Below are positions 28,701 to 36,148 of a stretch of 64,000 nucleotides of DNA, piece after piece. This DNA comes from a virus. The notes below the pieces were generated by a model. The model searched no databases. It was not told where the DNA came from and worked only from the letters and a program-made list of their open reading frames with translations. The stretch's first letter is position 1; each line of letters opens with the position of its first letter. The translations under genes were made by a program, and so were the position numbers. The stretch covers positions 62,001 through 126,000 of the IMG/VR virus record IMGVR_UViG_3300037042_004723. One strand, written 5' to 3'.

Positions 28701-28886
28701 TCAAGGCTGGCCGGTCGCGCTTGGCTGGGGGTCGTGAAACGCTGCCACGGACTGCTTCCTGTGTGGAATGCAGAGGATCGTCCGGCCAGTCCTCAGAGCT
28801 TGATCAGCGACGAAAATAAAACCGGCCTTGCACCAATGACAAGGCCGGTCGTCCGACGCGGGATGAAGCAGTACGTCATTTTCCAT
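28701..28886 (-). CDS. possible small Cys/His protein following tRNA-Arg
   Basis: 61 residues. RPCHWCKAGF...LCIPHRK offers C-x2-C...C-x2-H ligands. The ATG is only 3 nt past the tRNA-Arg(CCT) discriminator base, matching the spacing of other genes in this cluster. Against it: the terminator hairpin lies inside the frame. It may be a non-coding 3' tail. Confidence 0.4.
   Translation of the reverse strand: MENDVLLHPASDDRPCHWCKAGFIFVADQALRTGRTILCIPHRKQSVAAFHDPQPSATGQP
28811..28849 (-). terminator. intrinsic terminator of the leftward tRNA region
   Basis: On the minus strand ACCGGCCTTG, a 9-nt loop and CAAGGCCGGT are followed by TTTTATTTT. Confidence 0.85.
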
Positions 28887-28889
28887 TCG

Positions 28890-28963
28890 TGACCCAGGCA
28901 GGAATCGAACCTGCGACCTATTCTTTAGGAAAGAATTGCTCTATCCAACTGAGCTACTTGGTC
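28890..28963 (-). tRNA. tRNA-Arg (anticodon CCT)
   Basis: Cloverleaf read by eye: acceptor GACCAAG with 6 of 7 pairs, anticodon stem ATTCT/AGAAT with loop TTCCTAA, T arm GCAGG-TTCGATT-CCTGC. Reads AGG, a codon usually rare in GC-rich hosts. Confidence 0.93.
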
Positions 28964-28967
28964 TTGG

Positions 28968-29040
28968 TGCATCCGGTTGGATTCGAACCAACGTAATTTC
29001 GCTTAGAAGGCGAACGCATAATCCACTAGACTACGGATGC
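28968..29040 (-). tRNA. tRNA-Arg (anticodon TCT)
   Basis: Acceptor GCATCCG/CGGATGC is perfect; anticodon stem TTCGC/GCGAA with loop CTTCTAA; T arm GTTGG-TTCGAAT-CCAAC. CCA is encoded (28967-28965). The last 15 nt of the upstream protein gene, including its TAG, lie inside the 5' acceptor and D arm. Confidence 0.93.
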
Positions 29041-30855
29041 AGTAACAGGCTTGGAGCGTACATCATCGTCAGATGAGTCCTCATTGTCAAAGGCCAATAC
29101 ACCCTTCGTCGCCCTGCGAGTCGACGGGATATACGGGCCGTCGTCGGGTCCCTTGACGTACGAGTTCTTCCAGAACCGCTTGATGGCGATCCACTCGTTT
29201 TCTTGACGCGGGGGCTGTCCACGCTCACGGAGCGCTTCGATAGTCACATCATCGAGGGGCTTGGTCTTGAAGATGTTATAGTTCAACTTCTCCAGGTCTA
29301 GCTCCATCTCGGCGTCCATGGGCATCTGCCCACGGTAGATCTTGAAGCACCAGTGGCCACGGACATCGAATCGATGGGCGTACTTCGCGCGGAGGGCGCC
29401 GGCTCCGTAGCCCCTGACGATTTCCCTGATGACCTTGTCACGCAGGTGGACCGTGTAAAACGGCGGCGGGACGGGCTTCTTGAGGCCAAGGTCCAGCATG
29501 CCCTTTCTGATTTTGCTCTGGCTGTGGATGCTGAGCTTGCGCTGGGCAACGATAGTGGTCTGGTGATCGTTGACGCAGTCGATCATGCTGTGAAGGATGA
29601 ACGGCGCTAAGCTCATCGGGCGGAGCCACTCTGGCTTCTCCTCGACTCGGTGCGTGACGATGTTGAGGTTCGTGTCAACATCGTCGCCACGGCGGTTGGT
29701 GCCCTGGGACAGCAGCAGCTCGTGGTGCTCGCCATCTTCTCCGACGAGAATTCCCGCCAGGAGGTAGGCGCCTGTCGGACCCGTGAGACCACGGGTCCGG
29801 ATTTGATGCTCGGAGAGGGCAACCCCCTCGGAGATTGCAAACCAGCAGACGTTGAACGGGAACTTATCCGGGAACGGAAGTTCTTCGCACGCCTTCAGCT
29901 GGCGCTTGTAGAGGATGAATCCTTCATTGTCCAGCACCTCCTGGTCGACCTTAGGGTCATTTGGATGATGGAACGGAATCTGGGCGATTTCTTCGGTGAC
30001 GTAGCGGTCCACCTGCATGTGCAGCTCGACGTAGGACTCCGGGGCGACTTCGAAGATCTTGGCCTGCCGAAGCAAGACGTACATCTTGCCGCACTCGCGC
30101 CGGAACTTTTCGTTGATTTGCTTGCTGTCGTAGTTCCGCTTCAGCACATTCAGAATGGTGAGGTACACGTTGATGACGTTGTCGTGGGTCCTGTTGCTGG
30201 GCTTGCCCCAGTGCGGAAGGTCATTGACCACCCACGGCAGCGGACCGCCACCCAGTTCCTCCAGGATGGCGGGAATCTTCGAGAAGGCGATGGCGCGCTT
30301 GTGCAGAACGTCCTCGGACGCCGGAAGTAGATGGGGTGCCTGCTCCATCGTCATCTTGACGGTCTCCTGCCACGCCTCCAAGATCTTCCGCTGAAGCTCC
30401 TGTGCGTTACCCTGCTGGACGTATTCATCCATGCGCATCGCAATGGCCCCAGCCTGCCAGCCGCCATCGTTGAAGAAGGTGAGATATATATCTTTCCCCT
30501 CGCCCTGGCGACGAACGCGCATGAACCACATCCCCCACTTCTTGCGCAACCTCTCGAAAAGCTCACGGTCCTTGTCGGTCACGCGATAGCCAATCCACTG
30601 CTGGCCCTCGTCGGTCATCAAGCCGATGTACTTTGGGGTCGGAGATTTGCTGGGCTTGGCAGCGTCAAGCTTGTCCTGCCAGCGAACCGTCAGGTTGCCC
30701 TGAGGATTGGGATATCCCTCTGTGGACGGCCAGATAAGCTGGATGACCGGGTAGATGTAATGTTCTGCGCCGTTGGGGCACGGAATATGATCGGCACCCA
30801 CGCGGACGATGACATTGCCTTCGTGGATAGGGGTTCCCGGGTCGATCTTCGCCAT
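29026..30855 (-). CDS. large protein of unknown function (VRGHW family ending)
   Basis: 609 residues. No catalytic motif is clear. Near the C-terminus HRFDVRGHWCFKIYRG followed by a tryptophan-rich segment and VKGPDDGPYIPSTRR resembles the H-x-V-R-G-H...W-V/I-x-P-x-x-R-G signature of proteins of unknown role found in phages and mobile elements. GTTGTAGT ends 6 nt before the ATG, so the mRNA is probably leaderless. The stop codon lies within the tRNA-Arg(TCT) gene, so RNase P cleavage of the tRNA would remove the mRNA's own stop codon. Confidence 0.75.
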   Translation of the reverse strand: MAKIDPGTPIHEGNVIVRVGADHIPCPNGAEHYIYPVIQLIWPSTEGYPNPQGNLTVRWQDKLDAAKPSKSPTPKYIGLMTDEGQQWIGYRVTDKDRELFERLRKKWGMWFMRVRRQGEGKDIYLTFFNDGGWQAGAIAMRMDEYVQQGNAQELQRKILEAWQETVKMTMEQAPHLLPASEDVLHKRAIAFSKIPAILEELGGGPLPWVVNDLPHWGKPSNRTHDNVINVYLTILNVLKRNYDSKQINEKFRRECGKMYVLLRQAKIFEVAPESYVELHMQVDRYVTEEIAQIPFHHPNDPKVDQEVLDNEGFILYKRQLKACEELPFPDKFPFNVCWFAISEGVALSEHQIRTRGLTGPTGAYLLAGILVGEDGEHHELLLSQGTNRRGDDVDTNLNIVTHRVEEKPEWLRPMSLAPFILHSMIDCVNDHQTTIVAQRKLSIHSQSKIRKGMLDLGLKKPVPPPFYTVHLRDKVIREIVRGYGAGALRAKYAHRFDVRGHWCFKIYRGQMPMDAEMELDLEKLNYNIFKTKPLDDVTIEALRERGQPPRQENEWIAIKRFWKNSYVKGPDDGPYIPSTRRATKGVLAFDNEDSSDDDVRSKPVTASVV

Positions 30856-30894
30856 GCCCTAACTACAACTGGGCTGGTTGAAACTTTCGAACAA

Positions 30895-31392
30895 TTATTG
30901 GTTGGCCATCAGTTCGTTATAGTTGAAGTCTTCTCCGAGCGATTCCTGAATTGATGTAGTTTCCTCATCGCGTCGCTTCACTGGCTCTTGGTTGTACAGG
31001 AAAACATGCCTTGGGACGCGGGTCAGGCCCTGCACGAACTTCTTTCCTTCTTCGGTGATTCGGTAGTTACCAACGCGCTCGCTGCCGTCATCCCGGGTGC
31101 CTTTCTGGTCTTCGATCAGTCCCCAGTAGCGAAGCTTGGACCAGTCACCGCCGCGAACAGTGGCCCCACTAATAATTCGTGACAGGTACGATGGGACGTG
31201 TAGCCATTGTTCAGCTGGATTGGATTCGAAGTATTTGTAAATGTAGATCAAGGCAAGCGACATGGAACCGTTTAGCTTGCGCTTATAGAGCTTCACGAAC
31301 TGGTTGCAGCAAGGGCAGTCGGCGCCCTCACTGAATCGCTCACGAAGCCATCGCTTGGCTTCCTCTAGGGTGCGCGTGTCAGCTTCAGCCAT
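30895..31392 (-). CDS. winged-helix-like protein with CPCC motif
   Basis: 165 residues. ADCPCCNQFVKLYKRKLN is followed by a region compatible with a winged helix (ALIYIYKYFESN...YLSRIISGATVRGGDWSKLRYWGLIEDQKG...GNYRITEEGKKFV). Probably a DNA-binding regulator. Its promoter carries palindrome site 5 six bp above the -35, making this the best candidate in the window for regulated, or autoregulated, expression. Confidence 0.7.
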   Translation of the reverse strand: MAEADTRTLEEAKRWLRERFSEGADCPCCNQFVKLYKRKLNGSMSLALIYIYKYFESNPAEQWLHVPSYLSRIISGATVRGGDWSKLRYWGLIEDQKGTRDDGSERVGNYRITEEGKKFVQGLTRVPRHVFLYNQEPVKRRDEETTSIQESLGEDFNYNELMANQ

Positions 31393-35715: not shown

Positions 35716-35717
35716 CG

Positions 35718-35790
35718 TGACCCCGGTGAGAATTGAACTCAACGTCTTCGCTGTGAAAGAGCGACGTACTAACCATTATACGACGGGGCC
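35718..35790 (-). tRNA. tRNA-Glu (anticodon TTC)
   Basis: Acceptor GGCCCCG/CGGGGTC with one wobble, anticodon stem TCGCT/AGCGA with loop CTTTCAC, T loop TTCAATT. Confidence 0.92.
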
Positions 35791-35802
35791 GTGATTGTCA
35801 CG

Positions 35803-35873
35803 AGCGTACCGAGGGAGTTCAACCGAGGTCGATCGCTTACAAGGCGATCATTCCGCCACCGAACTACTCCACA
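35803..35873 (-). ncRNA. tRNA-Thr-like element (anticodon TGT) with unpaired 3' half
   Basis: Perfect anticodon stem ATCGC/GCGAT with loop CTTGTAA and a plausible D arm. The T stem (CTCGG versus CCCTC) and acceptor strands do not pair. It ends 12 nt before tRNA-Glu. Confidence 0.55.
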
Positions 35874-35897
35874 GTAAGATCGTGTATATTCAAGTCT

Positions 35898-36074
35898 ATG
35901 AACGACAAGCGAAAGCAAAGCCTCTACTTCCCAGAAGACATGCTGGCGGAGGTCCAGGCCGAAGCCACTCGCCTGGACCGCTCGCTCTCTTGGGTGGTCC
36001 AGCGCGCCTGGACCCTCTCAAGGGAGAAGCTGAAGGAGATCCCTTCAATCAACCAGCCAACAGAGACAGACTAG
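35898..36074 (+). CDS. ribbon-helix-helix protein (CopG/TIGR04563-like)
   Basis: 58 residues. KQSLYFPEDMLAEVQAEA forms the beta strand plus first helix of an RHH domain and TRLDRSLSWVVQRAW the second helix. The pattern is close to a small RHH type I associate with myxobacteria, which gives a host hint. RHH dimers bind operator DNA. TATATT lies 7 nt before the ATG, so leaderless. Its stop touches the next tRNA-like element. Confidence 0.8.
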   Translation: MNDKRKQSLYFPEDMLAEVQAEATRLDRSLSWVVQRAWTLSREKLKEIPSINQPTETD

Positions 36075-36148
36075 AGCCTTCGGCCGGATTTGAACCTACG
36101 ACCTCCGGGTTATGAGCCCGACGAGCTACCAGGCTGCTCTATTCCGCA
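36075..36148 (-). ncRNA. initiator tRNA-Met-like element with unpaired 3' half
   Basis: D arm, the G-C pairs of the anticodon stem (CGGG-CTCATAA-CCCG) and GTAGG-TTCAAAT-CC copy bacterial tRNA-fMet closely. From there the sequence diverges: 5' TGCGGAA has no matching TTCCGCA. Confidence 0.6.

Follow-up and report, generated by a model that had tools for sequence, protein, structure and literature searches.

The DNA analysed here (the window) is a 64,000-nt stretch that spans positions 62001-126000 of a virus record 197,279 bases long. Its source is a metagenomic myovirus with a tail sheath and a major head protein that resembles gp23. The subject of this work is the segment between positions 28,701 and 36,149 of the window, in which tRNA genes and small open reading frames (ORFs) follow one another on the minus strand with very short spacers. 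The original prediction, made from this sequence, described an alternating minus-strand series of tRNA and protein genes in the style of mitochondrial tRNA punctuation. A compact tRNA/ORF series is indeed present, but the alternation is not strict: three plus-strand ORFs (35898-36074, 34603-35106 and 34264-34581) interrupt it, and many borders are loose. Unless stated otherwise, the features below lie on the minus strand, and gene calls are codon-usage calls made in this analysis.

The segment contains four junctions at which an ATG lies 2-5 nt past the discriminator base of a tRNA. ORF90 (35443-35715) starts 2 nt after tRNA-Glu(TTC) (35717-35790; found by ARAGORN, Rfam score 56.4 bits), the spacer CG being followed directly by ATG. 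ORF88 (33264-33530) starts 5 nt after tRNA-Val(TAC) (33534-33606; ARAGORN, 66.4 bits), and ORF61, which has a CHWC motif (28701-28886), starts 3 nt after tRNA-Arg(CCT) (28889-28963; ARAGORN, 67.4 bits). These three distances had been named in the original prediction, and an independent placement by acceptor pairing agrees with them. The fourth junction had been missed: the ATG of ORF102 (33707-34015) is located 2 nt past a divergent tRNA-Met(CAU)-like gene (34017-34090).

The relatives of this phage found in IMG/VR share 83-97% identity in the head protein. The family as a whole consists of large, uncultured phages with 35-47 tRNA genes. Six of them (G001, G003, G006, G007, G009 and G010) contain 38-47 ARAGORN-predicted tRNAs each within about 18-28 kb, on one strand and in a largely shared order, with small ORFs interleaved, some of which run on the opposite strand. 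HNH-like ORFs can also be read within these arrays. The window phage has eight ARAGORN tRNAs left, arranged as in the relatives, and is thus an eroded member of the tRNA-array family. The conservation argument rests on five to seven related genomes. Searches of IMG/VR with ORF88 and ORF61 yielded no family members beyond the genomes already compared, a DNA search of the phage collection returned initiator-tRNA matches only, and a closest-record search with the 609-aa protein of the segment gave no match.

For every tRNA of the family, acceptor pairing served to place the discriminator base, and the ATGs behind it were counted. Of the 362 family tRNAs, 29 are followed at +2 to +5 by an ATG-led frame of 40 codons or more, versus 1 of 160 tRNAs in eight reference phages (T4, T5, KVP40, Aeh1, Myrna, CcrColossus, S-PM2 and G); about 20 of the 29 frames are backed by an orthologue in one of the other genomes or by a clear codon-usage score. 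The spacing itself is conserved. Between tRNA-Val(TAC) and ORF88 it is 5, 4, 5, 5 and 5 nt in five genomes, even though the identity of the protein drops to 41% and the tRNA changes heavily; between tRNA-Arg(CCT) and ORF61 it is 3 nt in all four genomes compared, and in G009 a different ORF begins 3 nt after the same tRNA. Both the geometry and its conservation are direct observations, and the counts together with the conserved spacing indicate that start junctions of this kind exceed chance. In G001 the start of the ORF90 orthologue lies farther off, 16 nt past the tRNA, and the spacer contains GAGG; ORF90 is therefore able to initiate from a conventional Shine-Dalgarno site. No annotated start in T4, T5, Myrna, CcrColossus, Aeh1 or phage G lies closer than 13 nt behind a tRNA, while S-PM2 has no tRNA annotation for such a comparison.

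The ORFs behind these tRNAs are coding. Ratios of nonsynonymous to synonymous substitution rates (dN/dS) of tRNA-adjacent ORFs range from 0.05 to 0.41 where measurable: 0.05-0.15 for ORF88, again where measurable, 0.09-0.32 for ORF61, 0.08 for ORF102 against G003 (phrog_13182, E=1.3e-25), 0.16 for ORF90 and its G001 orthologue, and about 0.2 for ORF67 (33064-33267). By this measure the tRNA-adjacent proteins are under purifying selection. Behind the last tRNA, inside the conserved part of ORF61, there is also a terminator-like hairpin of 12 pairs with a T-rich tail (28850-28820). Three relatives preserve the stem, with a G-C to A-T change that is compensatory, and the T-rich tail is poorly developed in G006.

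With the ATG this close to the tRNA, the 3' strand of the acceptor stem falls at the position where a Shine-Dalgarno motif would be expected. Such a motif was detected at -14 to -7 (peak at -11) in 37% of well-supported ATG genes versus 12% of internal ATGs, an enrichment by which the window phage uses Shine-Dalgarno sites. Within the last 12 nt of the tRNA the motif is present in 55% of cases when an ATG lies at +3 to +6, as opposed to 18% of other tRNAs, and the median motif energy is -5.35 kcal/mol versus -1.7 (p=9e-5, shared ancestry ignored). This enrichment, too, was observed directly. In tRNA-Val, whose acceptor 3' strand TGGGAGT contains GGAG, the acceptor pairs vary, and the 3' strand is G-rich in all five genomes. 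The structure predicted for the Val precursor has this strand 96% paired, so that the site would be closed to the ribosome once the tRNA has folded or been cleaved; for the Glu and Arg(CCT) precursors it is about 60% paired and the prediction is less clear.

A promoter scan found 3 sites against 3.4 expected, that is, no excess, and of 30 cases 1 has a -10-like TANNNT at a position from which transcription would begin at the ATG. We therefore rejected the possibility of an own promoter inside each tRNA; as there is also no room for one in the spacers, co-transcription of the tRNA with the downstream ORF is the likeliest arrangement. In the reading that we favour, the tRNA array would be transcribed together with the small ORFs set directly behind tRNA genes. 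A start codon 2-6 nt past the discriminator base brings the acceptor 3' strand to the Shine-Dalgarno position, and in roughly every second case of the +3 to +6 class this strand holds such a sequence, which would serve as the ribosome-binding site. A given transcript might then either fold and mature as tRNA, with the site hidden or cut off, or act as mRNA of the ORF. That the genes are co-transcribed, that ribosomes use the motif and that tRNA competes with translation are all parts that we infer from sequence, and we put forward the combination of the three tentatively, with a probability slightly short of even.

Several observations count against this reading. The p value given above ignores ancestry, and when junctions are counted independently the motif is found in roughly 7 of 13. 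ATGs at +2 (CC-ATG or CG-ATG) are without it, with 1 of 10 carrying the motif and a median of 0.3 kcal/mol, and therefore fall outside the model. In addition, about a third of the 29 counted frames are doubtful, having neither an orthologue nor codon support. One might go further and suppose that the frames are spurious altogether, and the low codon-usage scores of ORF61, ORF74 and others, as well as the conserved hairpin overlapping ORF61, could be cited in this sense; the purifying selection seen in ORF88, ORF61 and ORF102 makes this explanation very improbable. A more serious competitor is passive compaction with cassette exchange, in which recombination at conserved tRNAs moves modules and the tight spacing is inherited without functional coupling. 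It would account for the fact that tRNA-Arg(CCT) is trailed at the same distance by different ORFs (ORF61 or ORF194) in different phages, and it agrees with the HNH-like ORFs in the arrays and with stop overlaps that drift freely, as they do in T5. However, start spacing is far tighter than stop spacing, reference arrays that are equally compact keep their starts at least 10 nt off (bar one KVP40 start annotated inside a tRNA), and the motif enrichment also speaks against it, so we consider this explanation unlikely.

True tRNA punctuation, the core of the original prediction, would mean that cuts by RNase P and an RNase Z-type enzyme free mRNAs with leaders of 2-6 nt that are translated as leaderless messages. 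The tRNA-adjacent starts do lie where 3' endonucleolytic maturation would cut, and CCA is encoded in only 125 of 362 family tRNAs, which fits a host with RNase Z-type cleavage and CCA addition. Leaders shorter than 10 nt have been classed as leaderless, with 264 such mRNAs in Streptomyces coelicolor and five in E. coli (PMC4681348), and the motif-free ATGs at +2 point in the same direction. On the other hand, were the tRNA taken off first, one would not expect the motif to be enriched at the tRNA 3' end where the ATG is at +3 to +6: a cut behind the discriminator base would separate the motif from the mRNA, which makes the leaderless reading less simple. Many tRNA-ORF borders are, moreover, tens to hundreds of nt apart. 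We give punctuation about the same low probability as compaction. For the +3 to +6 class the evidence thus favours a ribosome-binding site embedded in the tRNA over a leaderless mRNA, whereas at +2 leaderless initiation may occur. The broader proposition of a conserved system, in which tRNA 3' ends are initiation regions, tRNA maturation and protein synthesis exclude each other and part of the genes become leaderless through tRNA processing, appears doubtful to us, if not quite as unlikely as these two alternatives.

The stop codons at tRNA borders have to be judged differently. The overlaps listed in the original prediction are found at their positions: the stop of the 609-aa ORF (29026-30855) lies 15 nt inside tRNA-Arg(TCT) (28965-29040, CCA encoded; ARAGORN and Rfam; overlap 29026-29040), that of the zinc-ribbon-like ORF74 (31528-31752) lies 9 nt inside tRNA-Ser(GGA) (31453-31536; overlap 31528-31536), and ORF67 stops 5 nt before tRNA-Leu(TAA). 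The junction at 32672/32671, where the stop of ORF68 (32672-32878) adjoins a tRNA-like element, is real as well, but the element is a truncated 5' part of tRNA-Leu(GAG). The spacing in relatives had been named beforehand as a check; while the starts keep it, the stops drift. The gap between the 609-aa ORF and tRNA-Arg(TCT) is -15, 0 and +32 nt across genomes and +76 nt in G001; that between ORF67 and tRNA-Leu(TAA) is 5, 5, 1 and -10 nt; ORF74 and tRNA-Ser are separated by -9 nt in the window, -9 in G003 and +4 in G006; and ORF68 is 0 nt from the intact tRNA-Leu(GAG) in G003 and 3 nt in G001. Among frames entering a family tRNA, 26% stop within the first 18 nt versus a background of 15%, which places stops at tRNAs weakly above chance, and the sequence at the 5' end of a tRNA is itself prone to contain chance stops. 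Given the unconserved spacing, the similar overlaps in T5 and this chance bias, the switch between tRNA and protein that had been suggested for the overlapping stops is unsupported as a selected trait, and we rejected it as a conserved mechanism. Stops inside tRNAs are, in the reading favoured here, a by-product of compaction.

The remaining tRNA genes of the segment vary in their state of preservation. tRNA-Met(CAT) (34101-34175; 50.5 bits) and tRNA-Leu(TAA) (32983-33058; 57.6 bits) were found by ARAGORN and Rfam. The TAA anticodon of the latter sits on a class I body of 76 nt with a short variable loop, in the window as in the closest relative, L095, where tRNA-Leu(CAA) also measures 76 nt. 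Bacterial tRNA-Leu has a long variable arm as a rule, and the charging identity of the short-armed Leu(TAA) is therefore uncertain. The adjacent tRNA-Leu(TAG) (32918-32992; ARAGORN) overlaps it by 10 nt; its counterpart in L095 is 84 nt long and 7 nt away from Leu(TAA), and the window copy has lost part of the variable arm. Comparison with relatives identified the 5' part of tRNA-Leu(GAG), about 34 nt (32638-32671), the gene having been truncated by a deletion that, measured against L095, removed about 3.3 kb. In L095 (6426-6500) and L096 (5482-5559) the start of tRNA-Leu(CAA) is overlapped by a tRNA whose anticodon loop (TAAG) is predicted to be 8 nt long. Two elements were initially candidates for decayed genes, and the stem comparison led us to reject this view. 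The tRNA-Met(CAU)-like gene gave no match by ARAGORN or Rfam, yet it is 84% identical to the G003 tRNA-Met and has all stems paired (7/7 acceptor, 3/3 D, 5/5 anticodon and 4/4 T pairs), with compensatory changes versus relatives; its T-loop reads GTCGGAA. tRNA-Ser(GGA), with C33, was missed by ARAGORN and is below the Rfam cut-offs, and it keeps all counted stem pairs through compensatory changes. By comparison, the Ile(TAT)-like element (35106-35179; 87% identical to the G006 tRNA-Ile(TAT), 3 of 7 acceptor pairs) and the initiator-Met element (36056-36149) look like relics.

Two further genes lie among these tRNAs. A 178-aa protein (30895-31431) shows at most about 39% identity to hypothetical proteins from phages of the mycobacteriophage and gordoniaphage groups (phrog_2693). 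At 31749-32406 there is a release-factor gene (PF00472, E=1.4e-30; RF-1 domain with GGQ) that is encoded in two frames joined by a +1 shift at CTT TAG C. The slip site is conserved in seven phages, as CTT TAG C in the window phage, G003, L098 and G009 and as CTT TGA C in G001, L097 and G006. A +1 shift site with an in-frame stop in a release-factor gene resembles the autoregulatory site of prfB; unlike in prfB, the stop of the phage site alternates between UAG and UGA, and the recognition loop of the relatives carries PPT. This motif, which is missing in G003 and the window phage, points to a release factor of the RF1 type. TAG is the commonest stop in the G000 contig (111 TAG, 87 TGA and 51 TAA by crude gene calls), and this excess and the phage release factor may be related. 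No paper on this phage release-factor frameshift was found in the open-access literature, and the gene is possibly more interesting than the finding on starts behind tRNAs.

If the embedded-site reading is true, tRNA supply would be tied on the same RNA to the output of small uncharacterised phage proteins, and the question of mitochondrial-type processing would become testable in bacteria. There are practical consequences as well: annotation pipelines are likely to shift tRNA-touching starts downstream or to drop them, and standard tools overlook the divergent tRNAs of these phages. Phage tRNA arrays with interleaved genes are already known. In the open-access literature we found no account of phage tRNA punctuation, of leaderless phage mRNAs arising by tRNA, RNase P or RNase Z processing, or of a Shine-Dalgarno motif within a tRNA, and likewise nothing on start codons held at a constant 2-5 nt from a tRNA, or on acceptor strands as ribosome-binding sites.

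It is instructive to compare the array with known systems. As in mitochondria, tRNA and protein genes are nearly spacer-free in places and ATGs lie a few nt past tRNA ends, and this tight spacing is the part of the mitochondrial comparison that holds. The phage stops are all full triplets and not completed by polyadenylation, and the tRNAs do not bound most genes, since loose borders and ORF-ORF borders without a tRNA are common. Mitochondrial mRNAs have neither leader nor Shine-Dalgarno motif; in the phage the motif occurs at the frequencies given above for the +3 to +6 and +2 classes. The likeness to mitochondrial punctuation is thus an analogy of spacing only. In the T4 cluster the segB stop lies 5 nt before tRNA-Arg, while its start is 41 nt after tRNA-Ile. 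In KVP40, KVP40.0313 has a start annotated inside tRNA-Met and a stop 4 nt before tRNA-Gly, but it is a single case and other KVP40 starts are at least 10 nt off. The T5 tRNA region is likewise a one-strand array, in which small ORFs and HNH genes are set between dozens of tRNAs. T5 stops adjoin or overlap tRNAs as they do here (T5.057 by 6 nt, hegC by 14, T5.069 by 24 and T5.065 by 0). Its starts, however, are at least 13 nt behind the tRNA, which leaves space for a separate Shine-Dalgarno site, and none lies at 2-5 nt. The window array shares with T5 the tRNAs and ORFs interleaved on one strand and the stops at the next tRNA; what it does not share is the room for a Shine-Dalgarno site between tRNA and start, its ATGs being at +2 to +5. 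Judged from these features, it would work as an interleaved array of the T5 type, with a start geometry that T5 lacks.

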